Source: Lachnospiraceae bacterium | GTDB taxonomy: Bacteria > Bacillota > Clostridia > Lachnospirales > Lachnospiraceae | Assembly (NCBI GenBank): GCA_021205385.1 | Contig: JAJPXQ010000135.1 | Location: 1 to 41,143 of the forward strand | Length of the DNA: 41,143 bases | Reading direction: 5' to 3' | Notes under the pieces: model-generated | The model's database searches: none | The model's input: only the letters and a program-made list of their open reading frames with translations | Told to the model about the DNA's origin: nothing | Program-made: the position numbers and the translations under genes | Shown here: piece by piece, positions 26,387 to 41,104 of the stretch | Position numbering within the stretch: position 1 is the stretch's first letter | Layout of the letters: the number at the start of each line of letters is the position of its first letter

Positions 26387-26430
26387 AAAAAAACACCCGT
26401 CCACTTGTCATATGTCAAGTAGACGGGCGT
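26387..26430 (-). terminator. Strong terminator closing the decarboxylase/glycoside operon
   Basis: On the minus strand, arms of 14-15 bp (CACCCGTCCACTTG at 26394-26407 with CAAGTAGACGGGCG at 26416-26429, one mismatch) surround an 8-nt loop and are followed by seven U (26387-26393). This marks the 3' end of the long operon that starts at the symporter gene. Confidence 0.9.
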
Positions 26431-26464
26431 AAATTTACGCAAAATATTCGCCAGACTCCGCGTT

Positions 26465-26836
26465 TCAGCTGGAGGCCAGAATCATCTCCTTCAATTCTCT
26501 GCAGGCCTTCAGAATTTCCTCGATCATCTCCGGACTGATCCCGTCAAGGTGGATCCCGCAGCTGCAGACCACGGTGCAGTTTTTCTGAGTGGCAACCGCC
26601 TCCGCGATCTCACGGGCGACCACTTCCTCCTTATGTCCCAGGCAGTTCAGCACGGAAGTCGTCGCGCTAACGCCTTTTCCTGTCAGGCTGGGGCGCGCCG
26701 CGGAAAGACAGACGGAGCCGACATGTCCACCCACCTCATCCCACAGACAGACCGTGTAATCCCTGCCCATCTCGATCACTTCGCAGTGCAGCATGGTCCC
26801 GCACACGGATTTCTCATAATGCCGCCTCATCCCCAT
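26465..26836 (-). CDS. LpdD-like prenylated-flavin chaperone / decarboxylase small subunit
   Basis: This 123-aa protein resembles LpdD-type proteins encoded with UbiX and UbiD homologues in gallate and hydroxybenzoate decarboxylase operons. The conserved middle GHVGSVCLSAARPSLTGKG, then VSATTSVLNCLGHKEEVVA, and the C-terminal GIHLDGISPEMIEEIL fit the family. LpdD-like proteins are thought to help pass prenylated FMN from the prenyltransferase to the decarboxylase. The gene overlaps the end of the ubiX-like gene by ten bases and is the last of the operon. Confidence 0.78.
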   Translation of the reverse strand: MGMRRHYEKSVCGTMLHCEVIEMGRDYTVCLWDEVGGHVGSVCLSAARPSLTGKGVSATTSVLNCLGHKEEVVAREIAEAVATQKNCTVVCSCGIHLDGISPEMIEEILKACRELKEMILASS

Positions 26837-27387
26837 CTTCTGAAATCCTCCGTTTCAATTCCAAAGGGCTGCAGCAGTCTTCCCACAATCTGTCGTTCCA
26901 TCTCCGCGAGGCTCCCTGGATTGTGATAATAGGTGAGCACCGGCGGCATGAGAAAGACGCCCGGAATCCGCGAAAGCTTCAGCATGTTTTCCAGATGAAT
27001 CGAGCTTAAGGGCGTCTCCCGCACCGCAAGAACGAGCTTTCGCTGCTCCTTGATCGTCACATCCGCCGCACGCAGCAGCAGGTTGTCGCTGTAACCATTC
27101 GCGATGCCGCTGACCGTCTTCATGGCGCAGGGAAGGATGATCATGCCGTCTGTCGGAAAACTGCCGCTCGCGACCGCCGCGCCGATATCGCTGTTGTCAT
27201 AGCTCACGTCCGCGAGCGCGCGGATATCGTCCGCGTCAAGGTCACTCTCGTACTTTGCGGTCAGCTCTGCTCCCCGGGTGAAAATGACATGCGTCTCCAC
27301 CTCCGGATTTTTCTTCAGTTCTTTCAAAAGGCATACGGCCAACGGAAAGCCGCTGGCTCCGCTGATGCCCACAATCAGACGTTTCAT
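26827..27387 (-). CDS. UbiX/LpdB flavin prenyltransferase
   Basis: This 186-aa UbiX-family enzyme joins dimethylallyl phosphate to FMN, producing the prenylated FMN that UbiD decarboxylases need. The N-terminal GISGASG (7-13) binds the flavin phosphate. LPCAMKTVSGIANGYSDNLL, LVLAVRETPLSSIHLENML and MPPVLTYYHNP are family motifs. Its ATG overlaps the stop of the decarboxylase gene in the ATGA arrangement, so they are coupled. Confidence 0.95.
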   Translation of the reverse strand: MKRLIVGISGASGFPLAVCLLKELKKNPEVETHVIFTRGAELTAKYESDLDADDIRALADVSYDNSDIGAAVASGSFPTDGMIILPCAMKTVSGIANGYSDNLLLRAADVTIKEQRKLVLAVRETPLSSIHLENMLKLSRIPGVFLMPPVLTYYHNPGSLAEMERQIVGRLLQPFGIETEDFRRWG

Positions 27388-28862
27388 ATTTTCATCTCGT
27401 CAGCCCACTTCTCCATGTCGATGTCCATGAACTTCGCACGTTCGAAGCGTTCTTTCTGGTCATAGGGTACCGTGCAGTCGAAGATCGCCTTGCAGGCCAC
27501 GCCCACCGCGCGGATATCCGGCGTGTACTCGGGATTGTTCGATGGGTCGAGCGGATGGCACTGCACGCCCGGTATCATGATAATATCCTTGTCCGCCTGG
27601 AAGCGCGTCGTCATCGCCCACAGCACATCCTTGATGTCAAAGGGATCGACGTCTTCATCTACCAGAAATACATGTTTGAGCTCTGCGAAGGCGCTGAAAG
27701 CCAACAAGCCCGCCTGTCTCTGCCGCCCTTCATCGGAAGGCATTGTCTTTTTGAACTGCATGACCGCAATGTATTTTCCACCGCCTGAGGAGGCACAGTA
27801 CACATTCTTAAGTCTGCCGGGCATGGCCTTCTCCACCATGGCGAGGATACTGGCCTCTGTCGGAATACCCGCCATGGAAACGTGCTCCTCGGACGGTCCG
27901 ATGCAGGTCTGCATAATCGGGTTCCGGCGCGTTGTGACCGCCTTGACCTTGATGATCGGCAGCTCCGGATTGGCCGGTCCGCAGTATCCGGGGAACTCGG
28001 GCATCGCCTTGCCGGTGCCGGACTGAATATCTTCCTGGATCCTTCTCCCCGGCAGCACCTCTCCCTCGATCACATACTCCGCGTTCGCGATCGCGCGCTC
28101 ATTGATCGTCAGACATTTCACCAGCTCCACTGGTTTCTTCCGGATCGCGCCCGCAGCCTGCAGCTCGTCATAACCGAGCGGCGTCGTAGGCGGCTCAAAA
28201 CAGGCCGCAATCTCGATCGCCGGATCTACTCCGATCGAAATCGAGATGGGAAGCGGCTCATTCCGCGCTTCCGCCAGCTCATAGAAATGTCCGATATGGC
28301 GCGCGCCCGGCTGGAAGAAAATCGAAATCTCATCCTTGCTCTGCAGGCACATGCGGTGAATCGTCACATCCGAGGTCCCGGTCTCCGGGCTCGTCGCGTA
28401 GCACATGCCGAGCGTGATATAGGGGCCGGCGTCCTCCTCCGTGTTTGTCGGGGCCGGAACCAGCTTCCTCACATCAAAGTCGGGATCCGTTGCCAGATGC
28501 ACGATTTCCTGGCACTTTGCCTGCTCATTCGGGATCACAACCGGCGGCAGCGGGTTAGATACGCTGTCCTTCAGCAGAAATCCCAGCTTCTGCGGCTCAC
28601 AGTCCAGCAGCGCTCCCACGCGCTTTCTGCTCGCCAGCACCCCGATCGCAACGCGCGCGTCCGGGTGTCCTTTCACATTGTTAAATACCATCGCCGGGCC
28701 TTCCTTTGTGGGACGCATCACCGTCCCGCCTGCTCCCACGTGGCGATAAACGCCGGAGAGCTCCGCCATCGGCTCGACCTCCACATCCGTTTCCAGCAAC
28801 TGCCCCGGCATCGTCTTTAAAAATTCCAGAGCCGAGCGCAGGCTGTCTACCTGATTTCCCAT
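27384..28862 (-). CDS. UbiD-family hydroxyarylic-acid decarboxylase (LpdC/gallate-decarboxylase-like)
   Basis: This 492-aa UbiD-family enzyme uses prenylated FMN for non-oxidative aromatic decarboxylation. Arg170 (in TIHRM) and an acidic pair in AEYVIEGE (about 262-268) lie where the catalytic residues are expected. N-terminal ETDVEVEPMAELSGVYRHVG and GPSEEHVSMAGIPTEASIL are signatures I associate with the LpdC/4-hydroxybenzoate-decarboxylase branch, not with ubiquinone UbiD. In this operon with a tannase-like esterase, gallate or protocatechuate is the natural guess, but the substrate is inferred. AGGAGG precedes the ATG. Confidence 0.9.
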   Translation of the reverse strand: MGNQVDSLRSALEFLKTMPGQLLETDVEVEPMAELSGVYRHVGAGGTVMRPTKEGPAMVFNNVKGHPDARVAIGVLASRKRVGALLDCEPQKLGFLLKDSVSNPLPPVVIPNEQAKCQEIVHLATDPDFDVRKLVPAPTNTEEDAGPYITLGMCYATSPETGTSDVTIHRMCLQSKDEISIFFQPGARHIGHFYELAEARNEPLPISISIGVDPAIEIAACFEPPTTPLGYDELQAAGAIRKKPVELVKCLTINERAIANAEYVIEGEVLPGRRIQEDIQSGTGKAMPEFPGYCGPANPELPIIKVKAVTTRRNPIMQTCIGPSEEHVSMAGIPTEASILAMVEKAMPGRLKNVYCASSGGGKYIAVMQFKKTMPSDEGRQRQAGLLAFSAFAELKHVFLVDEDVDPFDIKDVLWAMTTRFQADKDIIMIPGVQCHPLDPSNNPEYTPDIRAVGVACKAIFDCTVPYDQKERFERAKFMDIDMEKWADEMKI

Positions 28863-28875
28863 AGCTTTCCTCCTT

Positions 28876-31263
28876 TTATTTTACAGCCTCTGTAAGTTCT
28901 CCCCGCAGAAGAACCTTCTTTCCGCAGAGTTCCAGACTGACGTCCTCCGTCCCTGTGAGATTCTTCACTCTTACCTTTTCATGATCCGCCGACACTTCCA
29001 GTTTCTGGCCCCGCCAGAGAATCGTATATACCAGGCGGCTCCATTCCTTCGGAAGGAAGGGGGCGATGCGAAGCTCTCCGCCGAGCATGCGCAGTCCGCC
29101 GAAGCCATAGACCACGCCCTGCCAGATCCCGCCGAACGAAGCGGTATGGATCCCCGCATTCGAGCTGCTCATGACCGGTCCCAGATCAATCTGTGCGGAT
29201 TTCTCAAAGAGATCATAGGCCATCTCGCCTTCCCGCATATCCGCGGCCAGCACCGCGTGCGTACAGAGGGAAAGCGACGAATCGTGCAGTGTCCTCGCCG
29301 CGTAGTATTCCCAGGTCGCAGCCTTGACCTCGTGTGGGAACAGCTCCTCCAGCAGGAAAAACAGCACCAGCACATCCGCCTGCTTGCTGACCTGTATCTG
29401 ATTGATCTGGGTCAGATTATAGTCGCGGAAAATCCCGTTCACGAAATCCTGCGACCTGTACTTGGACAGATCGATATCCTTCAGTGTCAGATAGGTGGAG
29501 TCCTGAGGCAGAATTCCCTGTTCATTCGGCACCGGCAGAAATACCCTGTCCACCTTTTCCGTCCACTGCTGATAATATGCCTCGAGATCCAGCTTCCCAC
29601 ACAGCCGCGCAAAGAGCTCCGGTTTCTGTTCCTTCAGAAGCTCATAGTATTCCATTGCCTTGCGGATGTTCCACACCGCGAGATAGTTTGTGAAGGCATT
29701 GTCGGTCTTATGCTCCTTGTACTCGTCGGGTCCCACCACGTCGCAGATATGATAGAGGCCGTCGTCCGTGACTGTCTCCGAAAATTCGGTCACGCCGGTC
29801 TCCGGGTTGATGCTCTCGTGAATCTGACGGCACTTGTCCTCCAGTCTCGACACCCAGAAACGCGCCGTGTCAAAGATCAGCTCATAGCCGTAGCGCTCCA
29901 TATAATCCTCGTCTCCGGTGATCGCGTAATACTGCCACACACCGAAGGCTACATCCGCCGTAATATGCTGCTCGATAAATCCCGACCATACCTTGATGGG
30001 AAGTCCCGTGACGATATCCACATCCTGATATTCCGGCGTTACCTCGCCGTCGTCCAGCCACGCGGACTCCCAGGGAAACATCGCTCCCTGATAGCCATTG
30101 TGCTCCGCCTTCCGGTGGGCACCCGGCAGAGACAGATAACGGTACTCCTCCAGCTTGCGGGCCGCTTCCGGCTGCGTGAAAATATAGTAGGGAAGCAGGA
30201 AAATCTCGGTGTCCCAGAAGCAATGCCCCCGGTAACCCTCGCCAGAAAGTCCCTTTGCGCCGATATTCAGCCGGTTGTCATGCGCCGGCACCATCAGCCG
30301 CAGATGATACTGCGCAAAACGGATCGCGAACTGATCGAAATCATTTCCCTCGATCGTGATGGGGATTCTGTCCCAGACCTCCCGTTTCCAGGCAGCCCCG
30401 GTTTCCGCTGCGAGCGCGTCATACCCCAGCTCCAGCAGTCCCTTCAGATCCGCGAGGGATCTTGTCTGCAATTCAGAAACGGCCACGCCTTCCGCGTCAA
30501 AATCCCGCGTTGTGAAGACGTTGCAGTACTTTTCGATCGTCAGCGTTTCTCCCTGCTCCGCCTCCAGCTCGTATCCGCCGTACACCTTCCGCAGCTCCAT
30601 ATACACCTGCGTCGGGACGTCCAGCTCCTCGCCGTTCTTCGCAAAACGGTGCACCGTGTTCAGCACAAAGCTGATGCCGGACTCCGTCGTCTTCGGCACA
30701 AACTGCATGTATCTGTTTTCATAGAAGCGTTTGTCGCCGTCCGTAAAATGCTGTGCGCCGGTGTTGGTGACGCGCCCGTCGATACCAGAGCGGACTCTGA
30801 TTTCCAGTTTTCCGGAGAGCGGCGTGATCTCCACGCGGCTCGCGAAATCATGAAGCCGCTCAAGAGACACGGCTCTGCGAAAATGGAGTCTCACCCGGTC
30901 GCCCTTCGGCGAGGTCCATACGACCTTCCTCGTAAGCTCTGCTTTCCGGATGTCAAGCTCCCTTTCGTATTCCTCGATTTTCCCCTGTTCCAGATTGAAG
31001 CGCACGCCGTTCAGCCACAGCTCGATCGCCGTCATGTCCGGGGCATTCGGGAGCTCGGTCACCGCGGTCGGGTCAGATTTATTGAAAGTTCCGCCGACCA
31101 GCAGATCCCGCGTTTCATGCAGGTACTTCTCCTCCGTCGCGCTGCGCAGCCCGAGATAGCCGTTTCCCAGCGACATTACCGCCTCGCACTTTCCAAGCTG
31201 TTCTTCGTCAAAACAGTCCTCCCGGAGAATCCAGTCGTTTATCTTACTGTAATCCATTCCCAT
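28876..31263 (-). CDS. GH65 alpha-glucoside phosphorylase (maltose/kojibiose/nigerose type)
   Basis: This 795-aa glycoside hydrolase family 65 protein is of normal length. It has an N-terminal beta-sandwich, the (alpha/alpha)6 barrel with FWDTEIFLLPYYIF at about 349-362, the catalytic Glu514 in VVGPDEYKEH, and the substrate/phosphate region SKQADVLVLFF. Members split alpha-glucosides with phosphate, giving beta-glucose-1-phosphate. The nearby beta-phosphoglucomutase would turn that into glucose-6-phosphate, strong contextual support. The bond specificity (maltose, kojibiose, nigerose or trehalose type) cannot be read here. GGGGAG precedes the ATG. Confidence 0.93.
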   Translation of the reverse strand: MGMDYSKINDWILREDCFDEEQLGKCEAVMSLGNGYLGLRSATEEKYLHETRDLLVGGTFNKSDPTAVTELPNAPDMTAIELWLNGVRFNLEQGKIEEYERELDIRKAELTRKVVWTSPKGDRVRLHFRRAVSLERLHDFASRVEITPLSGKLEIRVRSGIDGRVTNTGAQHFTDGDKRFYENRYMQFVPKTTESGISFVLNTVHRFAKNGEELDVPTQVYMELRKVYGGYELEAEQGETLTIEKYCNVFTTRDFDAEGVAVSELQTRSLADLKGLLELGYDALAAETGAAWKREVWDRIPITIEGNDFDQFAIRFAQYHLRLMVPAHDNRLNIGAKGLSGEGYRGHCFWDTEIFLLPYYIFTQPEAARKLEEYRYLSLPGAHRKAEHNGYQGAMFPWESAWLDDGEVTPEYQDVDIVTGLPIKVWSGFIEQHITADVAFGVWQYYAITGDEDYMERYGYELIFDTARFWVSRLEDKCRQIHESINPETGVTEFSETVTDDGLYHICDVVGPDEYKEHKTDNAFTNYLAVWNIRKAMEYYELLKEQKPELFARLCGKLDLEAYYQQWTEKVDRVFLPVPNEQGILPQDSTYLTLKDIDLSKYRSQDFVNGIFRDYNLTQINQIQVSKQADVLVLFFLLEELFPHEVKAATWEYYAARTLHDSSLSLCTHAVLAADMREGEMAYDLFEKSAQIDLGPVMSSSNAGIHTASFGGIWQGVVYGFGGLRMLGGELRIAPFLPKEWSRLVYTILWRGQKLEVSADHEKVRVKNLTGTEDVSLELCGKKVLLRGELTEAVK

Positions 31264-31278
31264 GGTTTTCTCCCCATA

Positions 31279-33015
31279 TTAACGCGCGCAGATCGATTCA
31301 ATCCAGTCACAGAGCTCGCCCGGATAGTCCGCCTCACAGTGCGGCTTATCCCACACGAGCGCATAGTCCACATCCTTCCCCGCATTTGCAAGCTCCAGGG
31401 CCAGCGTCATGCTGACAGAGAAGGAGGTGTCGGCGTCGCCCGCGCCCACGCGTATCCGGTAATGCTCCGCACAGTCGCTCTTCTCTTCGGTGCCGATATA
31501 GTTCAGCGGATTGATCAGATATTTCTGCCTGGTAAGCGCGCTGTCTTCCGCCACCTGCGCGTATTTCTCATAATAACGCGCGTACTCTTCCGGAAATGCT
31601 TCCTTCAGTGATGCGATGGCGTCGGCGATCTGCCCGGAAAAATGGGCGACCGGCTCCGCCGCGTCTCCAAACACCTTATTTTCCCCGCTGCTGCAGTTCA
31701 GCACGTCAAACGCCGTACAGGGCTTCATCCTGCGCCTGTGCGCAAGTACGTAGCTGTCGAGATCGGAGACCGCGGCGGTACTTCCATCCCACTTCAGCCA
31801 TCCGCTCTTATCTTTTCCCTGCGCCATTACGGTCGGCGGCACAAAGGGCGGCGGAGCCGGTACACCCTTCGGCGGTCTGGAAACCATGTCCCCGAGCGTC
31901 AGAGGCTCTGCCGGCGCGTCCCCCGGCATGCCTGCGGGCGGCTTCCGGAGCGCTACGCCCGGTCCGGCATGACCCTGCATCAGATCGGACTCATCGTCCT
32001 TGTCGTCTCCGCCCATCGGCGCCGCGGTCTCGTAGGTGTAATTTCCCTTCAGATAATCATCCGCCGTATAACTTTCCGCAAGCTCTCCTCTGTCCAGCTT
32101 TCCAAGGAACTTCGTCGCGGACTGATTCAGAAGATTCATCAGATACGCGTATCCGCTGCCGCTTCTGCCATCTGCGCCAAGCGTGATCGCCGCGCCTGTC
32201 TTCGGATCTTTCAGTCCAAGCCCGTTAAAATACGCGATGTAAGCCTCCTTCAGCTTTCCGGAGAGCGCCTCCTCAAACGGAGTCATCGTCCCGGCCGGTC
32301 CCGCAGGCGAGGCTTCGTTCTCCTTATCCGCCGAGAACATCCACTCATACGCGAGATCCGCGTGTTCCAGATCAATGATCGGGCAGTAGATCTGCGAGGC
32401 GTATACGTCGTCGCGCTCTTCCATAAAAGCGCCCGCTTCTTTTAAAGCTTCTTCATAATTCGCGCTGTTTCCTGTCACGCCGACCAGCGTGGACATCGCC
32501 CCGCCGGCACTCCAGCCCACAGAGATGATCCGATCCATATCACCCGGAATCAGCGCGCTGTTGTGGCGCAGGAAGCGCAGTGCCATCTTCAGATCGATCA
32601 GATTCGCCGGTGCCTTGCCGCAGCGCCGCCCTTCCGCATCCTTCGACTCATGCCCCCGGTTCCCGCTTGTCACATACACAAATCCTCTTTCGAGATACTG
32701 CGGACCGAAGCAGCGCGGTCCGCCGAGCCACATATGCGGCATCTGCATATAGCCCGCAGAATTATTATTGAAAATGACGGGAGCTGTCTTCGCCGTGTAG
32801 CCGTTCATGCTGCCCTGCGGATCGATCACGCCGCCTTCCTTCATATAAGGCGCAGGAACAAAAATACTCATCCGCTGAAATTTCGGGCATTCTGCTTTCG
32901 GCGTATACAGAATATCTTCCAGGCACCAACAGTTGTAAGTTTCATCAAAAAACCACTGATCCTGCACCTCAGACAGTTCCATGGTCTGATTAATCACCGG
33001 AATATCATTTCCCAT
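31279..33015 (-). CDS. Tannase-like (subtype B) alpha/beta hydrolase
   Basis: This 578-aa protein has no signal peptide and so should be cytosolic. The nucleophile elbow GWSAGG puts Ser169 in place. Asp527 (in GDADTS) and His559 (KPHCEADYP) are 32 residues apart, the same spacing as the catalytic Asp419 and His451 I recall for Lactiplantibacillus plantarum tannase. Asp529, Lys431 and Glu445 fit the galloyl-binding Asp421, Lys343 and Glu357 of that enzyme, with identical 14-residue Lys-Glu spacing. A proline-rich insertion (about 340-400) makes it roughly 100 aa longer. It likely cleaves galloyl or related hydroxybenzoyl esters. AGGAGG lies 12 bases before the ATG. Confidence 0.82.
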   Translation of the reverse strand: MGNDIPVINQTMELSEVQDQWFFDETYNCWCLEDILYTPKAECPKFQRMSIFVPAPYMKEGGVIDPQGSMNGYTAKTAPVIFNNNSAGYMQMPHMWLGGPRCFGPQYLERGFVYVTSGNRGHESKDAEGRRCGKAPANLIDLKMALRFLRHNSALIPGDMDRIISVGWSAGGAMSTLVGVTGNSANYEEALKEAGAFMEERDDVYASQIYCPIIDLEHADLAYEWMFSADKENEASPAGPAGTMTPFEEALSGKLKEAYIAYFNGLGLKDPKTGAAITLGADGRSGSGYAYLMNLLNQSATKFLGKLDRGELAESYTADDYLKGNYTYETAAPMGGDDKDDESDLMQGHAGPGVALRKPPAGMPGDAPAEPLTLGDMVSRPPKGVPAPPPFVPPTVMAQGKDKSGWLKWDGSTAAVSDLDSYVLAHRRRMKPCTAFDVLNCSSGENKVFGDAAEPVAHFSGQIADAIASLKEAFPEEYARYYEKYAQVAEDSALTRQKYLINPLNYIGTEEKSDCAEHYRIRVGAGDADTSFSVSMTLALELANAGKDVDYALVWDKPHCEADYPGELCDWIESICAR

Positions 33016-33036
33016 TATTTTCTCTCACCTCCTGTT

Positions 33037-33672
33037 TTATGATAACACAATCTGCTTTAATTCTTCAATGGACTGCATGGGCCAGGTGGCCGTCTCCGCC
33101 GCTTCTCCGATCCCGGCGCTGTCCATTCCGCCGCGTGTCGCGGCTGTCACGCCTGCCTTCGCATCCTCCACGACCAGACACTGTTCTGATGAAAGTCCCA
33201 GCATTTCAGCCGCTTTCAGGAATACCTCCGGATCTGGCTTGGAATGCGTGATATTCGTCCCATCGCTGACCGCGTCAAAACAGTTTTCCAGCCCCAGTCT
33301 TTCCAGTATCAGTTTTGTATTTCTACTGGACGAACCGATCGCGATCCGGATTTCGGCCTCCTTCAGCGTCCTCAGTACATCCTTCACATCCGCCGGAAGG
33401 TCTTTCTCCGACATCTGAGAGAGCAGTTCCCGGTACATCCGGTTCTTTTTCTCACACAGCCTTTCCTTCTCCTCCATAGAATAGCTTCGCTCCGCCTTTT
33501 CCAGGATGATCTCCAGGCTCGCCATCCGGCTCACGCCTCTTAAGCGGTCGTTGATTTTCTCATCAAAATAAATGCCTTCTTCATCCGCGATGGCTTTCCA
33601 CGCAAGATAATGATATTTGTCTGTAAAACAGATCACACCGTCCAGGTCAAAAATCACCGCCTGATATCGCAC
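33037..33672 (-). CDS. pgmB: Beta-phosphoglucomutase
   Basis: This 211-aa HAD protein has FDLDGVICFTDKYHYLAWK (nucleophile Asp and general acid-base Asp), the cap motif RLRGVSRMASLEIIL, SSSRN and the DAKAGVTAA segment, the pattern of beta-phosphoglucomutases. It should convert beta-glucose-1-phosphate, the product of the GH65 enzyme, into glucose-6-phosphate. I start at the GTG at 33672, eight bases after GGAGG; the GTG at 33681 lies inside that site. Gene order places it between GH3 and the tannase-like gene. Confidence 0.92.
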   Translation of the reverse strand: MRYQAVIFDLDGVICFTDKYHYLAWKAIADEEGIYFDEKINDRLRGVSRMASLEIILEKAERSYSMEEKERLCEKKNRMYRELLSQMSEKDLPADVKDVLRTLKEAEIRIAIGSSSRNTKLILERLGLENCFDAVSDGTNITHSKPDPEVFLKAAEMLGLSSEQCLVVEDAKAGVTAATRGGMDSAGIGEAAETATWPMQSIEELKQIVLS

Positions 33673-33684
33673 GCTTTTCACCTC

Positions 33685-35322
33685 CTACAGGCGTGCGTCC
33701 GGCAGGTCGCAGAACGCGTCGACCGGAGACACTCCCTTAAATTCACTCTTTCCGAGCAGCTTTTCGATCACTGCCTCGATCATCGCACGATGACAGCTGT
33801 ACGCGTTGATATAAGTCTTCACCCGCGGCACATCCTGCAGATGATAAGGATTGGAGAAGGAAACAAAGACAGCGCTTTCTTCCCACACATGGCGCGGCAC
33901 GTCAAGCGCGTGCTTTTTCGCCCAGTTCAACCGGATCGTGGTCTGATTGGAGGCATGCTCACAGTTTGCGAGATAGAGCGTCAGCCTTTTTCTGTCAAGC
34001 GCGCCCGTCCCGTGCATCTCTTCCTTCCCGATATCAAAGCGCTCCGTCTGAAAGCCTTCTCTTTGCAGGATTTCCTCCGCGATCGCGGTCATGCTGCCGT
34101 CCACCGTATGGTCATTACCGAGCGTCACCAGCCGGATAAGAGGATATTCCTCCGGGCTGATCGGAAGCAGCTCATCTATATTTTTTACAAGCGTCACGCA
34201 TTTATCCGCACATTCTGCCTGCCACAGCTTCGCCTCCGGCATCGGCGCTGTCTTCGGCCTGTTCCCCGCGACTTTTGCCTTTAGAGCCAGAATGCGGCTG
34301 ACTGCTTCGTCAAGACGCGCCTCCGTCAAAGCCCCACTTTCCAGGCCGTCCAGCATATACTGGTAATCCTCGTAAAAATCTGTGCTGAATACCAGCATAT
34401 CGCAACCCGCCGCGATAGCGGTCGGTATCGCGTGCCGCCGCGGCATCGCCTGCGTAAATCCGCTCATGATCGTCGCATCCGTTGTGATCAGGCCGTTAAA
34501 ACCAAATCGCTCGCGCAGCACGCCCGTGAGCAGCTCCCGGCAGAGCGAGCCCGGCAGACAGTCCTCAAAGCGCAGCTTTGGATTGATCTCCATCGCCACA
34601 TTCGGCTGTACGATATGTCCCACCATGACGCTCATCAGGCCGTCCTCGATCAGCTGCTGATAAATTGCTCCATAGCTGGCAAACCAGTCCTTTGCCGACA
34701 GACTGTTGTAGGTAGGATGCAGGTGCTGATCCCGGAAATCCACGCCGTCCCCCGGAAAATGCTTCGCGCAGGCCGCCATTCCGTTTTTCTGCAAAGTTTT
34801 TACATAAACGGAGCAGAGCCGTTTGACGCGCTCTGCGTCTGAGCCGCAGGTACGGACATTGGTGATCGGATTCCGGTAATTCATGTCAATATCGCATACC
34901 GGGGAAAAAGTCCAGTTGACCCCCGTCATCTGCCCCTCCCGGGCGCAGACAGTGGCGAACTTCTCCATCATTCCGTCCTCATCCGTCGCCGCCACTGTCA
35001 TCGGCCAGCCAAAGAAGGTACCGTCGCTGATTGCTCCGCTTCCACCCTCTTCCAGATTCGCCGCCCGCAAAAGGGGAATCCCGGCAGCCGCGTCCAGCAC
35101 AGCGTACCAGTCTCTGATATCCGCTGCGGGCGCGGGGCGATAGAGGACGCCGCCCACATTGTACTCGGTGACGATCCGCTCCAGCTCCTTCAGTTCAAAA
35201 TCACCGCCCATCACACAGAAAAGCTGTCCCACCTTCTGCCGGACGGACAGGGAATCCCGCGTCTCATTGACCCAGCGCAGCTCCTCCTCCGTCAGATAAA
35301 ACGGCTTCTTCCTTAAATCCAT
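33685..35322 (-). CDS. GH3 glycosidase (NagZ-like architecture)
   Basis: This 545-aa glycoside hydrolase family 3 protein has KHFPGDG at 187-193 followed by DQHLHP, and the nucleophile Asp282 in GLITTDATIM. A C-terminal alpha/beta domain (about 375-530) follows the barrel. It lacks a signal peptide, so it acts on imported material. Family members hydrolyse beta-glucosides or beta-GlcNAc. In NagZ-type enzymes an Asp-His dyad in the FPGHGDT loop serves as acid-base; here GDGVDFRDQH differs, so activity type needs care. It would release glucose from a beta-glucoside in this operon. Confidence 0.85.
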   Translation of the reverse strand: MDLRKKPFYLTEEELRWVNETRDSLSVRQKVGQLFCVMGGDFELKELERIVTEYNVGGVLYRPAPAADIRDWYAVLDAAAGIPLLRAANLEEGGSGAISDGTFFGWPMTVAATDEDGMMEKFATVCAREGQMTGVNWTFSPVCDIDMNYRNPITNVRTCGSDAERVKRLCSVYVKTLQKNGMAACAKHFPGDGVDFRDQHLHPTYNSLSAKDWFASYGAIYQQLIEDGLMSVMVGHIVQPNVAMEINPKLRFEDCLPGSLCRELLTGVLRERFGFNGLITTDATIMSGFTQAMPRRHAIPTAIAAGCDMLVFSTDFYEDYQYMLDGLESGALTEARLDEAVSRILALKAKVAGNRPKTAPMPEAKLWQAECADKCVTLVKNIDELLPISPEEYPLIRLVTLGNDHTVDGSMTAIAEEILQREGFQTERFDIGKEEMHGTGALDRKRLTLYLANCEHASNQTTIRLNWAKKHALDVPRHVWEESAVFVSFSNPYHLQDVPRVKTYINAYSCHRAMIEAVIEKLLGKSEFKGVSPVDAFCDLPDARL

Positions 35323-35338
35323 AAGTCTGGCCTCCAGG

Positions 35339-36298
35339 TTATTTCAGATTTTTATCCAGCCAGGCCCACAGAACATTCAGATTCCACTCGCTGGAATACT
35401 CCTTGTCCTCATGATCGGCATGAGGCAGAGGAACAAATTCCACCCGGCCCTGGCCCAGCTTCTGATAGATCTCATTGACAAAGTTGACACTCTGCATAAA
35501 GGGCACCAGTCGATCCATGCAGCCATGCTCCACCAGCATGGGAGCCATTGCATTGCTGATATAGGTGGCGGGATTGGCCTTAGCCAGCCATTCGTCGGAC
35601 AGGGCAGGCAGTGCGCCGCCCATATAGGCGCTTTCGGCGGACTCCGGCGTGTCATGGTCCGCAAAGCTGACCCCGTTGGCTCTGGCCTGATCGTCCATAG
35701 GGCGGAAGTCCATGGGACCAAACTGATCCACGCAGGCCTGCACAGTGCAGTCACCGTCAAATGTCATGCCCTCCTCGCCGGGAAACTGGCCATTGGGGAT
35801 GTTCATGCCCATCATGGCTGCCAGATTGCCGCCGGCGCTGCCGCCCAGGGCACAGATGCGATTGGGGTCGATGAAATATTTCGCCGCGTTGCGGCGCAGG
35901 AACCGGAACGCCTCCCGGCAGTCCAGCACGGCGGCGGGGAAGATGGCCTCTCCGCTGAGGCGATACTCCACCGAAGCGATGGCGTAACCGTGGGCCAGAC
36001 CCTTGAGATAGGTGTCCATATGATCGTCCCGCTTGTCGCCCATACCGAAGCCGCCTCCATGGAGATGCACCACCAGCGGGAACGGGCCGTCTCCCTCCTC
36101 CGGGAGATAGAGATCCAGCCGCTGCGCGTAGGACTGGCTGGCGTAAGGGACGTCCAGATATTTGCGCCTGACCCAGCTGATATCGGCTATTTTCATTTCC
36201 ATGGCCGGCACCTCGCCCTCCGCAGGGGCGTCAAAGCGCAGGGAACCTTCCAACTTGTCATAATCCTCCAGACCGAAGGGTTTGTTTTCCTGACTCAT
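35339..36298 (-). CDS. Alpha/beta hydrolase (HSL/BD-FAE-like esterase)
   Basis: This 319-aa cytosolic esterase has oxyanion motif HLHGGGFGMG, the nucleophile in GGSAGG, the acid Asp of HGCMDRLVPF and the base His of LPHADHEDKEY. It fits the acetyl/feruloyl-esterase-like group. Its place next to a GPH transporter and glycosidase suggests acyl or aroyl removal from an imported sugar ester. AAAGGATG lies upstream of the ATG. A GC-rich hairpin separates it from the symporter gene. Confidence 0.88.
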   Translation of the reverse strand: MSQENKPFGLEDYDKLEGSLRFDAPAEGEVPAMEMKIADISWVRRKYLDVPYASQSYAQRLDLYLPEEGDGPFPLVVHLHGGGFGMGDKRDDHMDTYLKGLAHGYAIASVEYRLSGEAIFPAAVLDCREAFRFLRRNAAKYFIDPNRICALGGSAGGNLAAMMGMNIPNGQFPGEEGMTFDGDCTVQACVDQFGPMDFRPMDDQARANGVSFADHDTPESAESAYMGGALPALSDEWLAKANPATYISNAMAPMLVEHGCMDRLVPFMQSVNFVNEIYQKLGQGRVEFVPLPHADHEDKEYSSEWNLNVLWAWLDKNLK

Positions 36299-36327
36299 GA
36301 TAAAACATCCTTTCTTAAGTTGTAAAA

Positions 36328-36367
36328 GCCGGGGCAGCCGAGCAGAAGCGCTGCAAGCTGTCCCGGC
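36328..36367 (-). terminator. Intra-operon hairpin between symporter and esterase genes
   Basis: GCCGGGGCAG (36328-36337) pairs with CTGTCCCGGC (36358-36367) with one G-T pair and a 20-nt loop. On the minus strand it is followed by UUUUAC. It may be a partial terminator or mRNA stabiliser that sets the transporter to enzyme ratio. Confidence 0.6.
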
Positions 36368-36390
36368 AAAATGTGGGAAATTGATTTTTA

Positions 36391-37731
36391 TTACCTGGCG
36401 GAAGCGTCGGCCCCGCGATACTGAGGCGCATACTTTTCCACATTGGTCAGAAGAACCAGGATCAGAATAATCACGCCGAAGATCGCGCCCATGTAGGTAT
36501 AGTCGAACTGAATGGCGGCGGCGGTAGCGGCGCTCTGGAATTCCAGAGTGGCGTCATATCCGGCAGCAGCCAGAATCCAGGCAGCCATACCAGAGCCGAA
36601 GCCCATGCCGATCTTGGAGCCGATGGACTGGGCAGAGGAGATCAGACCCTCAGAACGAACGCCATACTTCCAATAGCCATATTCCACAACGTCAGGCACC
36701 ATGGCAAACACCGCGCTCAGCAACGGGCCTGCTCCCAGAGAACGGATGACCACGCCAATGATAACAATTGTCGTATTTGTTCCGGCAAGACCGCAGATGA
36801 CAAAGCCGACAATCAGCAGCACGGCGCCGATAGCCAGGAAGATCTGTTTAGACCATTTGTTGGAGATGGCGGGCATCAGAAGCAGGATAATAATACCAGG
36901 GAACTGACCTGCCACCATCAGGGCGGACATGAACATGGCGTTGCCCAACACCACGCTGCAGTAATAGGTCTGCGCGGCGATGGCGTTGGCGTTCATCAGC
37001 AGGGAGAACACACCAATCAGAAGGAGAAGCCAGAAGTAGCGGTTCTTCATAACGGAGGGGAACTGCTGCTTCAGAGTCGGTTTTGCCTCCTGGGAAGCTC
37101 CTTCCTCCGCATCGTCCATGTCAAGTTCCTTGTTGACAATTCCGGAAATCAGAATCAGGACACCGGCAATCAGACCCAGGAAGATGCTGGCCCAGTGCCA
37201 GCCAAAATAAAGAACCAGAGGAGTGATGGCGGATCCGGCGATCAGGCCGATGACATTGTTGCCCACGGCAGAGAAGGTGGCCAACATGGTATTGTCCTGC
37301 GGGTCGCGGGTCATCAGGGGAAGCATGGCGGTGTTGGCAATACCAAAGATGGTGTATACAACTACCGACATAAATATGTAGGTTGCGTAGGCGTAGACCA
37401 GCTTGGCGCTGGCGCCGGCCGCCACAGGCACATGCATCAGCAGCACAATGCCGAGGAAGGTCAACGGGCCGGAGAGAATCAGCCAGGGCCTCGCCTTACC
37501 CCATTTAGTATGGGTGCTGTCCACGATAGCGCCCATAACCAGGTCGCTGATGCCGTCAAAGACACGACAGACCACGAACATGGTACCGATGGCCGCCGCG
37601 CCCATCAGGGCGGTGTCCGTGTAGTAGCTTAGCAGAAAGGCTGCGCCGATCTGGCTGAAGATGTTGCCGCCGCCGGTGCCAAGACCATAGATCGTCTTGC
37701 GCCAAAGCGGAACTTTTTTTCTTTCGTTCAT
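36391..37731 (-). CDS. GPH-family (MelB-like) sugar:cation symporter
   Basis: This 446-aa protein has about twelve TM helices and the glycoside-pentoside-hexuronide:cation symporter pattern: N-terminal IYGLGTGGGNIFSQ, and FDGISDLVMGAIVDSTHTKWGKARPWL, the conserved Asp and RPW loop of the family. The family imports disaccharides, glycosides or uronides with Na+ or H+. It is the first gene of the operon, directly under the LysR-controlled promoter, so it is the likely uptake route of the substrate. AAGGAGG precedes the ATG. Confidence 0.92.
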   Translation of the reverse strand: MNERKKVPLWRKTIYGLGTGGGNIFSQIGAAFLLSYYTDTALMGAAAIGTMFVVCRVFDGISDLVMGAIVDSTHTKWGKARPWLILSGPLTFLGIVLLMHVPVAAGASAKLVYAYATYIFMSVVVYTIFGIANTAMLPLMTRDPQDNTMLATFSAVGNNVIGLIAGSAITPLVLYFGWHWASIFLGLIAGVLILISGIVNKELDMDDAEEGASQEAKPTLKQQFPSVMKNRYFWLLLLIGVFSLLMNANAIAAQTYYCSVVLGNAMFMSALMVAGQFPGIIILLLMPAISNKWSKQIFLAIGAVLLIVGFVICGLAGTNTTIVIIGVVIRSLGAGPLLSAVFAMVPDVVEYGYWKYGVRSEGLISSAQSIGSKIGMGFGSGMAAWILAAAGYDATLEFQSAATAAAIQFDYTYMGAIFGVIILILVLLTNVEKYAPQYRGADASAR

Positions 37732-37791
37732 GTTGAAACCTCCTTACCGTTTTCCTTTTCGTCTTTTTGCCGAATTTTCGGTCGCAACTAC

Positions 37792-37844
37792 ATTGTACTT
37801 CTAACATAATTGACAATCAATTCAATTTTGTGCTAGAATTGATT
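37792..37844. promoter_or_regulatory. Divergent promoter region with shared LysR-type dyad
   Basis: Minus strand: TTGATT (37815-37820), 17 bp, TACAAT (37792-37797) for the symporter operon. Plus strand: TTGACA (37810-37815), 18 bp, TAGAAT (37834-37839) for the LysR gene. AATCAATTC (37815-37823) and GAATTGATT (37836-37844) form a 9-12-9 inverted repeat that covers the operon -35 and the regulator -10. One bound LysR protein could repress itself and activate the operon. Confidence 0.75.
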
Positions 37845-37866
37845 CCAGAACAGAATCGACTATATG

Positions 37867-37880
37867 CGAAAGCGTTTTCA
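37867..37880 (+). promoter_or_regulatory. Candidate cre (CcpA) site
   Basis: CGAAAGCGTTTTCA matches the catabolite-responsive element TGWAARCGYTWWCA at all but its first base. It lies about 20-35 bp downstream of the predicted LysR gene start, where bound CcpA acts as a roadblock. TATGCG/CGCATA arms flank it. Confidence 0.6.
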
Positions 37881-37903
37881 CGCATAGTACAGGAGGCACA
37901 GAA

Positions 37904-38857
37904 ATGAATATCTCCTATTTCCGCGAATTTGTCGTTTTGGCGGAGACGCAGAATTTCTGGGCGGCGGCGGAGCGACTGTTTGTCAGCCAGTCCTCCCTGT
38001 CCAAGCACATCAAGGCCCTGGAGTCCAATTTGGGCGCGCCGCTGTTCGAGCGAACGTCCCGGCGGGTTGAGCTGTCTGCGTTCGGACGAACCATGCTGCC
38101 CTATGCTCAGTCCATGGCCAAGCTGCAATACGACTATGAGACGGCGGCCTTTAATTTTCTCCATCAGGAGAATGCGACGCTGGAGATCGCCTCGATCCCG
38201 GTTCTCGCCCACTACAATATCACGGAGGCACTGCTCCGGTTCAAAAAGGCCCACCCCATGGTTCAGGTCAACATTCAGGAGGGGGACACGCTGCTGGTGC
38301 GGGAAAAGCTGATCAGCCGGGAGTGCGAGGTCGGCATTTATCGGGACAGCCCTTCGTATCTGGAACACGACCCGGACAAGGAGCAGCACTTGGAAAAGCT
38401 GGCCTATGTCAGCGACCAGCTTATCGCAGTGCTCCCCCCGGATCACCCGCTGTCCAGATTCCCCAACGTGAAGCTGTCCCAGCTGTCCGGGGAGTTCTTT
38501 GCCCTGATTCATCAGGACACCATGCCCTACGAGCTGTGCCTGCGGGTCTGCCGGGAGGCAGGCTTCACCCCCAACGTAATTTTCAACTCTCACAATCTGG
38601 AGTCCATCCTGGACATGGTGCGGAAGGGCAGTTGCGTGGCGCTGCTGTTCACCAATCATCTGGACTTCCCTCATCACATCGACTTTGGCGGCAAGCCGCC
38701 CTTTGTGGCCGTACCTGTCACGCCGACCATTCAAACCACCGTTTATCTGAGCTATCGCAAGGGCGAAGCGCTATCCTCCGTTGCAGCGCACTTCATCGAG
38801 TTCTGTAAGCAAGCGAGAAGCGGACTGGTGGGAAATAAGGAAGAGACTCCCGCATGA
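37904..38857 (+). CDS. LysR-family regulator of the glycoside/phenolic operon
   Basis: This 317-aa LysR has an N-terminal HTH (SYFREFVVLAETQNFWAAAE, SQSSLSKHIKALESNLG) and an effector domain with 70% of its length free for ligand binding. CAGGAGGC precedes the ATG. It is divergent from the nine-gene operon and shares a dyad with it, so it most likely senses an operon substrate or product, for example a phenolic acid. Its TGA overlaps an ATG of a short relic frame. The next minus-strand operon is also within reach of its control. Confidence 0.93.
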   Translation: MNISYFREFVVLAETQNFWAAAERLFVSQSSLSKHIKALESNLGAPLFERTSRRVELSAFGRTMLPYAQSMAKLQYDYETAAFNFLHQENATLEIASIPVLAHYNITEALLRFKKAHPMVQVNIQEGDTLLVREKLISRECEVGIYRDSPSYLEHDPDKEQHLEKLAYVSDQLIAVLPPDHPLSRFPNVKLSQLSGEFFALIHQDTMPYELCLRVCREAGFTPNVIFNSHNLESILDMVRKGSCVALLFTNHLDFPHHIDFGGKPPFVAVPVTPTIQTTVYLSYRKGEALSSVAAHFIEFCKQARSGLVGNKEETPA

Positions 38858-38931
38858 CCGACAGACAGCTTCTTTGGGAACAGAATGCGGACGGCGTACC
38901 GGGAACCGGAGCGGGAAATCCTACGGACTGA
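38854..38931 (+). pseudogene. Short frame coupled to LysR, esterase N-terminus relic
   Basis: A 25-codon frame starts in the ATGA of the LysR stop and reads TDRQLLWEQNADGVPGTGAG before a TGA. The LLWxxGxPG pattern resembles the first residues of some acyl-hydrolase proteins, so this may be the scar of a removed esterase gene. It is too short for certainty. Confidence 0.3.
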
Positions 38932-38969
38932 TCCCTTCAGGATAAAGGAAGGTCTGAGTCGCTCACCGC

Positions 38970-39944
38970 CTATTTCAGATACATTCCAAAAAAGGCTTCC
39001 AGCTTATCAAACGGAATAATATCCATCCGGTCGTAGAGATCCGTGTGAACCGCGCCCGGAATGATCATCAGCTCCTTGTTGTCGCCGGTCAGCTTCGCAA
39101 AGGCGTCTCTGCTGAAGTAGCAGGAATGCGCTTTCTCGCCGTGAATGACGAGGACGGCACTGCGGATCTCCTGGCTGTACTGCAGGATCGGCATGTTGAG
39201 GAAGGACTCACAGCCCGTCACGTTCCAGCCGCCGTTGGAGTTCAGGCTGCGGGGATGATAGCCGCGCTCCGTTTTGTAATAATCATAATAATCTTTCACG
39301 AAAAACGGCGCGTCCTCCGGCAGCGGATCGACCACACCGCCGCCCAGCGCGTAGCTGCCGTTTCTGTAGTCCTCGATGCGCTGCGCGCAGAGCGCCTTGC
39401 GCTTCTCATAGCGGGCTTCCTCGCTGTCCTCACTGTCAAAGTAACCGTTCGCATTCACACGGGTCATGTCGTACATGGTGGAGGCCACAGTCGCCTTGAT
39501 ACGGGTGTCCAGCGCCGCCGCGTTGAGCGCCATGCCGCCCCAGCCGCAGATGCCGATGATGCCGATCCGCTCCGGATCCACTCCTGTCTGCACGGACAGG
39601 AAATCCACCGCCGCCATAAAATCCTCCGTATTGATATCCGGGGAGGCCATATAGCGGGGCTGCCCGCCGCTCTCGCCGGTGTAGGAGGGATCGAAGGCGA
39701 TCGTCAGGAAGCCCCGCTCCGCCAGCGTCTGTGCGTACAGACCGGAAGACTGCTCCTTCACCGCGCCGAAAGGACCGCATACCGCAATGGCCGGGAGCTT
39801 GCCCGCCGCGTTCTTCGGCTCATAGAGGTCCGCTGCAAGGGTGATGCCATAGCGGTTGTGAAACGTCACTTTTCTGTGGTTTACCTTGTCACTTTTGGGG
39901 AATACCTTATCCCATTCTTCTGTTAAAATAAGCTGTTCTTCCAT
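38970..39944 (-). CDS. Alpha/beta hydrolase with Cys nucleophile (dienelactone-hydrolase-like)
   Basis: This 324-aa protein has the alpha/beta hydrolase elbow GICGWGG, where Cys takes the usual Ser place, as in dienelactone hydrolases. VIHGEKAHSCYF has no Asp after HGE, a feature I associate with this subfamily, and the base is probably the His of PGAVHTDLYD. Such genes commonly sit with a CMD-cupin protein and flavodoxin, as here (24 bp after the CMD gene). Physiological substrate unknown. No signal peptide. Confidence 0.85.
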   Translation of the reverse strand: MEEQLILTEEWDKVFPKSDKVNHRKVTFHNRYGITLAADLYEPKNAAGKLPAIAVCGPFGAVKEQSSGLYAQTLAERGFLTIAFDPSYTGESGGQPRYMASPDINTEDFMAAVDFLSVQTGVDPERIGIIGICGWGGMALNAAALDTRIKATVASTMYDMTRVNANGYFDSEDSEEARYEKRKALCAQRIEDYRNGSYALGGGVVDPLPEDAPFFVKDYYDYYKTERGYHPRSLNSNGGWNVTGCESFLNMPILQYSQEIRSAVLVIHGEKAHSCYFSRDAFAKLTGDNKELMIIPGAVHTDLYDRMDIIPFDKLEAFFGMYLK

Positions 39945-39968
39945 GATGCTCTTGTCCTTTCTTGATCT

Positions 39969-40727
39969 TTATTTCAAAATACCATACTGCTCATCCGAAA
40001 CGGCCTCCAGCCACTCGTTCGAGCTGTTTTCCCCCGGCACCTCCACGGCCAGATGGGAGAACCAGCTGTCCGGGGCGGCCCCATGCCAGTGCTTCACGCC
40101 AACCGGAATATTGATGCAGTCGCCCGGCTTCATCTCCACCGCAGCCTTGCCCCACTCCTGGTAATAGCCGCGGCCGGCCACGCAGATCAGAATCTGGCCG
40201 CCGCCCTTGTCCGCATGATGGACATGCCAATTGTTGCGGCAGCCCGGCTCAAAGGTCACATTGAAGATACCAACCTGCTCCGTGGACACCGGAGCCAGAT
40301 AGCTCTGCCCGATGAAGTATTTCGCAAAGGCGTCGTTCGGCGCGCCGATGGGAAACACCATCTCGGCAGCGTGAGCCGCCTTTCCATCCACCGGAGCCGC
40401 GTCCTCCGCCCAGACCTCCTTCGCCATGTAGAAGACTGCCCAGGCCTTCGGCCAGCCGACATAGAAAGCGGCATGTGTAATGATGGCGGCAATCTCCGCC
40501 TTCGTCACTCCGGCCTTCTTTGCGTTCTCCAGATGATATTTCAGGGAAGAATCCGTAATACCGGAGGACATGAGTGCTACCACAGTGATAATGCACCGTG
40601 TCCTGTGATCAATATCCTGATTGTTCCAGTTTTCACCGAACAGCACGTCGTCATTGAAATGTGCAAATTCCGGTGCAAAATCTCCAAGGGTCTGACGCCC
40701 CGCTGTCTGTATGATTTTTTCCATCAT
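39969..40727 (-). CDS. Carboxymuconolactone decarboxylase-cupin fusion protein
   Basis: This 252-aa protein has an N-terminal CMD-like domain (about 30-110; HRTRCIITVVALMSSG, AEIAAIITHAAFYVGWPKAW) without the usual CxxC pair, and a C-terminal cupin (about 155-245; NNWHVHHADKGGGQ metal-binding His cluster, KHWHGA). The ATG at 40727 overlaps the flavodoxin stop by one base, with GGGGAGG just before; a second ATG three bases on is equally good. The role is unknown; oxidation-protection and small-lactone metabolism are common proposals. Confidence 0.85.
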   Translation of the reverse strand: MMEKIIQTAGRQTLGDFAPEFAHFNDDVLFGENWNNQDIDHRTRCIITVVALMSSGITDSSLKYHLENAKKAGVTKAEIAAIITHAAFYVGWPKAWAVFYMAKEVWAEDAAPVDGKAAHAAEMVFPIGAPNDAFAKYFIGQSYLAPVSTEQVGIFNVTFEPGCRNNWHVHHADKGGGQILICVAGRGYYQEWGKAAVEMKPGDCINIPVGVKHWHGAAPDSWFSHLAVEVPGENSSNEWLEAVSDEQYGILK

Positions 40728-41104
40728 CAAATCCTCCCCACCCATTTTTTCAGATCTGCGGCGCTCTGTCTGCCATTCAGGAGCTTACCGACTACGATTT
40801 CCGTATCCGATGATACGGATGCTTTCAGGACATCCGCGGTGCGCCCGAATCCGCTGCCGCCGGAAGTGGCAAAGAGAATGATCTTCTTTCCGGAAAAATC
40901 ATAGCTTTCCAGGAAGGTGTTGACGATCGTGGGCGCAACGCCCCACCAGATCGGGAATCCCAGAAAGATCGTATCATATTCCGCGATACCGGCACTCTGA
41001 TCTGCAAGCGCGGGTCGGCTGGAAAGATCGTTCATCTCCACCGAGCTGCGCGACTTTTTGTTCGTCCAGTCCAGATCCGCATTGGTATAACCCGAGTTTG
41101 CCAC
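40727..41104 (-). pseudogene. Flavodoxin-family protein lacking its N-terminal FMN-phosphate loop
   Basis: The 125-codon frame matches the flavodoxin (PF12682-like) family: YTNADLDWTNKKSRSSVEMND, FLGFPIWWGVAP, NTFLESYDFSGK and FATSGGSGFGRT. Family members have about 35 more N-terminal residues, including the T/SxTGxT phosphate loop. Upstream, the same frame runs to a TAA at 41135-41137 inside the window, so the N-terminus is absent in frame. A frameshift continuing beyond the window end, or a truncation, would explain this. Two genes of the operon follow it. Confidence 0.65.

Follow-up and report, generated by a model that had tools for sequence, protein, structure and literature searches.

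The window analysed here is the whole of a 41,143-nucleotide stretch from a Lachnospiraceae bacterium (positions 1 to 41,143 of contig JAJPXQ010000135.1, GenBank assembly GCA_021205385.1). On its minus strand lie nine open reading frames (ORFs), running from 37731 to 26465 and bounded by a divergent LysR gene and a strong terminator, which probably make up a cytoplasmic operon for acylated phenolic glycosides. The evidence lies in the genes themselves, in conserved residues and in clustering in many genomes. What seems to be new is that a tannase and a decarboxylase are tied to sugar phosphorolysis by two routes, which are opposite in stereochemistry and converge on a single beta-phosphoglucomutase (beta-PGM). 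The operon and its control elements are as follows.

37904..38857, plus strand: LysR-type regulator, divergent from the operon (PF00126 and PF03466)
37808..37822, minus strand: perfect dyad AATTGA-TTG-TCAATT, candidate LysR site (putative function)
37820-37792, minus strand: weak -35-like box (9 of 12 matches), overlapped by the dyad
36391..37731, minus strand: GPH-family sugar:cation symporter (TIGR00792, 266.5 bits, above 231.35; PF13347)
35339..36298, minus strand: BD-FAE family alpha/beta-hydrolase, acyl esterase (PF20434, 189.7 bits)
33685..35322, minus strand: GH3 of the BglP/BglX type, probable retaining beta-glucoside phosphorylase (match to 5vqd, E 8.5e-148)
33037..33681, minus strand: beta-PGM (TIGR01990, 246.5 bits, above 189.4; solved beta-PGM relatives)
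31279..33015, minus strand: subtype B tannase (NF041556, 351.7 bits, above the cut-off of 300)
28876..31263, minus strand: predicted GH65 inverting alpha-glucoside phosphorylase, kojibiose-phosphorylase-like (three Pfam domains; 3wiq, E 1.4e-124)
27384..28862, minus strand: UbiD-family hydroxybenzoate decarboxylase, AroY/LpdC type (5ny5 AroY, E 8.2e-194)
26827..27387, minus strand: UbiX flavin prenyltransferase, for prenyl-flavin mononucleotide (prenyl-FMN; TIGR00421, 221.4 bits, above 108.9; solved UbiX relatives)
26465..26836, minus strand: PF21758 protein in the LpdD position (101.6 bits, above 27)
26393..26430, minus strand: intrinsic terminator (15-pair stem, then TTTTTTG)

In the pathway that we propose, the symporter would import a glycoside bearing galloyl or dihydroxybenzoyl groups, and the BD-FAE esterase and the tannase would take off the acyl groups. 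The GH3 enzyme would then use phosphate to split the exposed beta-glucoside with retention, giving beta-glucose-1-phosphate. The GH65 enzyme would reach this product by an inverting phosphorolysis of alpha-linked glucose, the bond probably being alpha-1,2. The single beta-PGM would turn both supplies into glucose-6-phosphate, sparing one adenosine triphosphate (ATP) per glucose. UbiD, with prenyl-FMN made by UbiX, would decarboxylate the freed acid (gallate to pyrogallol, or protocatechuate to catechol), a step that would use up a proton and remove an acidic product, so that glucose-6-phosphate and a phenol would be the end products. If this is correct, gut anaerobes gain sugar phosphate from acylated plant glycosides, and tannin breakdown serves for feeding as well as detoxification.

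The operon and its clustering in other genomes

An earlier note on this DNA had described nine genes on one strand with overlaps or short gaps, and all nine ORFs are indeed in place, separated from the symporter to the last gene by 92, 16, 3, 21, 15, 13, -4 and -10 bases. The families that it named were checked with curated models (Pfam, NCBIfam/TIGR) and confirmed, the ninth product being the PF21758 protein, for which there was no NCBIfam match. Its strong terminator is borne out by a stem of -25.7 kcal/mol (z -7.1). The nine genes are likely to share one transcript, because the gaps are short or overlapping, there is one clear terminator and the set recurs in other genomes, and the proposal of one operon gains support accordingly. 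We infer both co-transcription and LysR control. The dyad sits in the gap between the LysR and symporter genes, its one match in the window comparing with 0.19 expected and with at least one match in 17 of 100 shuffles. Promoter-like sites in the region number 11, against 6.2 expected from shuffles (standard deviation 2.3); as the excess over the shuffles is modest, the promoter is no more than suggested.

The tannase, which the earlier note had called tannase-like, exceeds the cut-off of the family model and keeps the residues for catalysis and gallate binding. Alignment shows a conserved triad, S169-D527-H559, together with the gallate-binding residues K431, E445 and D529; these do not vary among 44 close relatives, apart from one gap at three positions, and 29-30 of 31 distant relatives share them. 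In solved tannases the Lys, Glu and Asp anchor the gallate hydroxyls (PMC8958541; papers are cited here from excerpts), and the enzyme may plausibly act on galloyl esters. A long, Pro-rich insert at about residues 306-413 brings its length to 578 residues, slightly over the range of about 470-570 given for subtype B (PMC8958541). Inspection by eye, with no predictor run, revealed no obvious signal peptide. Elsewhere in the same genome (G000:C160:39577-41118) there is a distant tannase-like gene, a 798-codon frame with 33% identity.

One scan of genome contigs gave 77 tannase loci, 44 with long tannases (at least 57% identity: L026, L032-L073 and L076, with L031 left out as the same place as L026) and 33 with other tannases. 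Neighbouring genes were called by tblastn at per-gene thresholds that we set, and contig ends make all locus counts lower bounds. Near the 44 long tannases there are LysR genes at 25 loci, symporters at 28, BD-FAE esterases at 32, GH3 at 22, beta-PGM at 11, GH65 at 16, UbiD at 29, UbiX at 21 and LpdD-like genes at 10. Near the 33 other tannases, the corresponding numbers are five for UbiD, four for UbiX, three for LpdD-like genes, one for LysR and none for the remaining genes. The tannase strand carries every one of the neighbouring GH3 (22/22), beta-PGM (11/11), GH65 (16/16) and UbiD (29/29) genes, as well as 31 of 32 esterases, 26 of 28 symporters and 19 of 21 UbiX genes. The clustering of GH3 with the tannase exceeds chance, given its presence at half of the close long-tannase loci, always on the same strand, and at none of the 33 distant ones. 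A search for the same gene order had been suggested in the earlier note; the gene set does recur in many genomes labelled Lachnospiraceae or Clostridiales, with a similar cluster in Petralouisia muris (L057), but across the 44 loci the order is often shuffled.

Whole genomes give a similar count. Among the 43 long-tannase genomes, 41 have a BglP-like GH3 at E 1e-60 and 37 an over-cut-off beta-PGM; a GH3 at that level is found in 54 of the 298 other genomes in the family sample. A GH3 at least 57% identical to that of the window is present in 34 of the 43, which are interrelated, against 1 of the 298 (counted by eye from match tables, the fragments of a broken-up match being taken as one gene). 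In six of the variant loci (L050, L051, L054, L056, L069 and L076) the cluster includes the three genes of a sugar-type ATP-binding cassette (ABC) importer, namely a binding protein, an ATPase with two ABC stretches and a BPD_transp_2 permease, families that were checked for three representatives. We count these sugar-type importers in favour of an acylated-glycoside substrate.

Two phosphorylases and one beta-phosphoglucomutase

GH3 phosphorylases are retaining enzymes that convert beta-glycosides into beta-sugar phosphates, owing to a His/Asp dyad (PMC8950772). As of November 2021 only two members were characterised: BglP, discovered in a metagenomic activity screen and active on cello-oligosaccharides, and Nag3, which acts on a cell-wall disaccharide and is tied to cell-wall recycling (PMC8950772). 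The operon's GH3 aligns over its full length with solved BglP/BglX (5vqd residues 8-567), its best solved match at 496.5 bits compared with 132.5 for the next. The dyad D198-x-H200, whose position we assigned through the alignment, and the nucleophile D282 are unchanged in all 20 relatives that have letters at these positions, two further relatives having gaps, and K187-H188 is kept in 20 of 21; in these residue alignments the truncated GH3 and GH65 sequences show up as gaps and, in one case, as a letter out of place. With dyad and nucleophile both present, beta-glucose-1-phosphate is the expected product, the same as that of GH65, and this GH3 is most likely the second phosphorylase of the operon.

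The GH65 enzyme, which matches a solved structure over its full length, has the conserved general acid E514 and phosphate-site residues K337, S662, S663 and H706, mapped through the 3wiq alignment onto those named in PMC8626586. In these residues the enzyme resembles the phosphorylases and is unlike the hydrolase FjGH65A (PMC8626586), and a hydrolase assignment was rejected, the phosphate site being intact. At CsKP positions 64, 392, 394, 402, 416 and 585, read by hand from the alignment, it has E, E, A, P, W and N, which fits EEAPxx, the specificity motif of kojibiose phosphorylases (PMC8537180), and its preferred bond is probably alpha-1,2.

In the window's genome (97.79% complete) a single gene was found for each of the three sugar enzymes, a beta-PGM above the cut-off, a GH65 and a BglP-like GH3 (E 1e-60), all in the operon. 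The tie between GH3 and beta-PGM was examined across 299 genomes from this bacterial family, taking the best 40 BglP-like GH3 hits with the window's own excluded. The 31 genomes that contain these loci total about 121.6 Mb and have 44 beta-PGM genes above the cut-off, figures from which 0.05, 0.12 and 0.28 of the 40 loci would be expected to have a beta-PGM within 500 bases, 3 kb and 8.5 kb; the numbers found were 8, 18 and 21, the estimate treating loci as independent despite shared ancestry and using rounded genome sizes. GH65 is near only two of these 40 loci (L140 and L142). Since beta-PGM thus accompanies GH3 mostly without GH65, GH3 and GH65 probably feed one beta-PGM, the former from beta-glucosides and the latter from alpha-glucosides. 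The 11 tannase loci with beta-PGM show five with GH3 and no GH65, and none with GH65 and no GH3. The eight lowest-scoring of the 40 have no beta-PGM within 8.5 kb and only two of 16 still weaker hits have one, so that the pairing fails as a rule for the whole GH3 group. One BglP-like GH3 (L147) has two beta-PGM genes near it. Together with this pairing, the operon gives the BglP-type GH3 a testable job in a living cell.

That the GH3 is instead a hydrolase, a beta-glucosidase or hexosaminidase, leaving GH65 as the only source of beta-glucose-1-phosphate, we consider rather improbable. The best NCBIfam GH3 label is beta-N-acetylhexosaminidase, although the score is below cut-off (102 against 207); the His/Asp dyad is common to NagZ-type hydrolases, which also counts for this alternative, as does a position after the nucleophile motif TDAT that is unlike BglP. 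The wide margin by which a phosphorylase is the best solved match, and the presence of beta-PGM near this type of GH3 far above chance and mostly without GH65, nevertheless argue for phosphorolysis.

The residue in question, directly after TDAT, is Gln in BglP and Ile in the operon's GH3 clade. An active-site Gln of BglP reportedly serves glucose recognition; its position was guessed from the alignment and may not be the one that reads Ile here. In the GH3 tree the window sequence, 19 tannase-linked sequences, L138 and L139 form one clade (support 1.0), all 22 members of which have the Ile. L138 is a second pairing of a tannase with an Ile-type GH3, in another lineage, its single gene run (L138:1842-9065) comprising a subtype A tannase, beta-PGM, an esterase, a YdjC-like protein and the GH3; L139 has an Opp-type importer with GH3 and beta-PGM. 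Nine other GH3 relatives (L168 and L170-L177) carry His where this clade has Ile, lack a nearby beta-PGM, and may act on another sugar. His is also found in L156 and L169, yet these two do have a beta-PGM.

A bolder idea, and in our view a long shot, is that the Ile-type clade has a new activity as an acyl-glucose phosphorylase acting on 1-O-galloyl-beta-glucose (glucogallin) or another 1-O-acyl-beta-glucose. GH3 and phosphate would then cleave the anomeric ester to beta-glucose-1-phosphate and the free acid, UbiD would decarboxylate the acid, and the tannase would only trim outer galloyl groups. Were this so, all the sugar in hydrolysable tannins would be recovered at no cost in ATP.

The substrate and competing explanations

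What does the operon act on? The earlier note had glucose split from galloyl-glucose and captured as glucose-6-phosphate. The end point stands, but the chemistry has to change: there is most likely a second phosphorylase in GH3, and GH65, with its kojibiose-type motif, needs an alpha-glucosidic bond, for which reason its capture of glucose from galloyl-glucose was rejected. The GH65 family phosphorolyses alpha-glucosides, and free glucose from galloyl-glucose hydrolysis is a substrate of neither the GH3 nor the GH65 phosphorylases. Either, therefore, the tannase leaves the sugar in a glycosidic bond (or in an anomeric ester), or the sugar genes have another role. The former makes an acylated glycoside the best guess, and a galloylated or dihydroxybenzoylated glycoside is likelier than galloyl-glucose. 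Galloyl-sucrose, cello-oligosaccharides as the GH3 substrate, and a GH65 running synthetically on beta-glucose-1-phosphate made by GH3 were also considered.

Under plain tannin degradation, by comparison, the tannase with UbiD, UbiX and the LpdD-like protein would detoxify galloyl-glucoses, the freed glucose would enter through glucokinase, and GH3, GH65 and beta-PGM would serve other co-regulated sugars, such as cello- or kojio-oligosaccharides. UbiD accompanies distant tannases without any of these three genes at 5 of 33 loci, implying that the tannase-decarboxylase module stands alone elsewhere; Streptococcus gallolyticus is described with just such a module (PMC4218992), and BglP itself acts on cello-oligosaccharides (PMC8950772). 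We nonetheless regard this explanation as unlikely. All 22 loci that have GH3 carry it on the tannase strand, and the set is kept together while gene order is shuffled between loci; GH3 lies between the tannase and UbiD in L058 and L076; and L138, from another lineage, groups a subtype A tannase with GH3 and beta-PGM.

It is possible, though we would not favour it, that the pathway is as proposed and the acid is protocatechuate, 4-hydroxybenzoate or similar in place of gallate. The closest solved UbiD structure is AroY, a 3,4-dihydroxybenzoate decarboxylase, which matches over the full length of 490 residues. The tannase, on the other hand, retains the Lys, Glu and Asp with their gallate-anchoring roles (PMC8958541), and in L074, L075 and L078 other tannases have, on the opposite strand, a nearby UbiD gene with 77-80% identity to that of the operon. 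Of the conversion of gallate to pyrogallol in the earlier note, gallate is plausible and is not separated from protocatechuate. The prenyl-FMN aromatic decarboxylase set itself holds up, UbiD, UbiX and the small third gene being adjoined with overlaps. VdcBCD was tried as an assignment and rejected, NCBIfam cut-offs for VdcC and VdcB being missed, and the pair is assigned no further than to a hydroxybenzoate decarboxylase of the UbiD/UbiX kind with a similar design.

Several points weigh against an operon for acylated phenolic glycosides. We infer every reaction, the substrate and the regulation, and we know of no common plant compound that combines a galloyl ester, a beta-glucoside and an alpha-1,2-glucoside. 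GH3 is absent from half of the long-tannase loci in the stretch seen, 17 of the 44, some cut by contig ends, have neither GH3 nor GH65, and GH65 is an optional part found in 16. Beta-PGM is absent within 8.5 kb at 19 of the best 40 GH3 loci, is not seen in the fetched stretch at 11 of 22 GH3-bearing and 10 of 16 GH65-bearing tannase loci, and does not exceed the cut-off in 6 of the 43 long-tannase genomes. The Ile in place of Gln after TDAT means that the substrate preference of GH3 may differ from that of BglP, and the use of cello-oligosaccharides by BglP means that GH3 could serve a glucose disaccharide, not a phenolic glycoside. The +1 site of GH65 reads WES, its Ser being shared by all 15 relatives that have a letter there, where a WET triad is highly conserved in kojibiose phosphorylases, so that the enzyme is termed kojibiose-phosphorylase-like only. 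Finally, UbiD scores 478.8 bits against NF041204 (VdcC), under the cut-off of 650, and UbiX 242.2 bits against the VdcB model, under 290.

Known systems and neighbouring genes

The clustering of a tannase with decarboxylase genes is already known from S. gallolyticus, in which tanB and sgdCBD are close together (PMC4218992). In Lactiplantibacillus plantarum tanB is near lpdC, and only lpdBD lies more than 1 Mb from lpdC (PMC4218992), contrary to the statement in the earlier note that tannase and lpd genes occupy separate loci. Both systems resemble the operon in their subtype B tannase and UbiD/UbiX/LpdD-type gallate decarboxylase, but the excerpts of PMC4218992 name no sugar-phosphorolysis genes and no glycoside symporter for them, whereas the operon has both. 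Its GH3 is like BglP/BglX (5VQD, 5VQE) in full-length homology, dyad and nucleophile, and differs at the residue after TDAT. The GH65 has the phosphate site, general acid and EEAP motif in common with the kojibiose phosphorylase of Caldicellulosiruptor saccharolyticus (3WIQ; PMC8537180, PMC8626586), and differs in its WES for WET and in adjoining a tannase. The UbiD matches AroY (5NY5) over its full length, here in the context of a tannase and sugar phosphorylases.

No description of this gene combination was found by title or abstract start among the matches listed in the literature search, nor anything there on tannase and phosphorylase with Lachnospiraceae or on tannase and beta-phosphoglucomutase. 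The novelty claimed in the earlier note, an interpretation that is partly supported overall, thus holds among those matches for the full combination and falls for tannase plus decarboxylase. In Lactobacillus acidophilus, the plant-glucoside route is said to use phosphotransferase uptake and phospho-beta-glucosidases and, to our knowledge, includes no tannase or decarboxylase. As is proposed here, growth of this organism on dietary plant glucosides releases the phytochemical (PMC5698550).

The window's genome has a second UbiD gene away from the operon (G000:C100:3349-3978). In L141, about 5 kb separate a UbiD gene 82% identical to that of the window (L141:4-1341) from a BglP-like GH3 that belongs to another clade and has Pro after TDAT; the 16 kb read there gave no tannase match. 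Past the LysR gene, at 38970-40745 and on the operon strand, the window encodes an S15/dienelactone-type hydrolase and a carboxymuconolactone decarboxylase-cupin protein, and an S15/dienelactone-type hydrolase gene also lies beside the cluster in L026. The DNA of the window and L026 is 95.6% identical over 26403-35325 and 91-96% identical in the aligned parts beyond 38964, compared with only about 67-73%, where alignable, at 35326-38963, the region of the esterase, symporter and LysR genes. This block looks to have been exchanged as one unit between close relatives, and is perhaps a swappable substrate front end.

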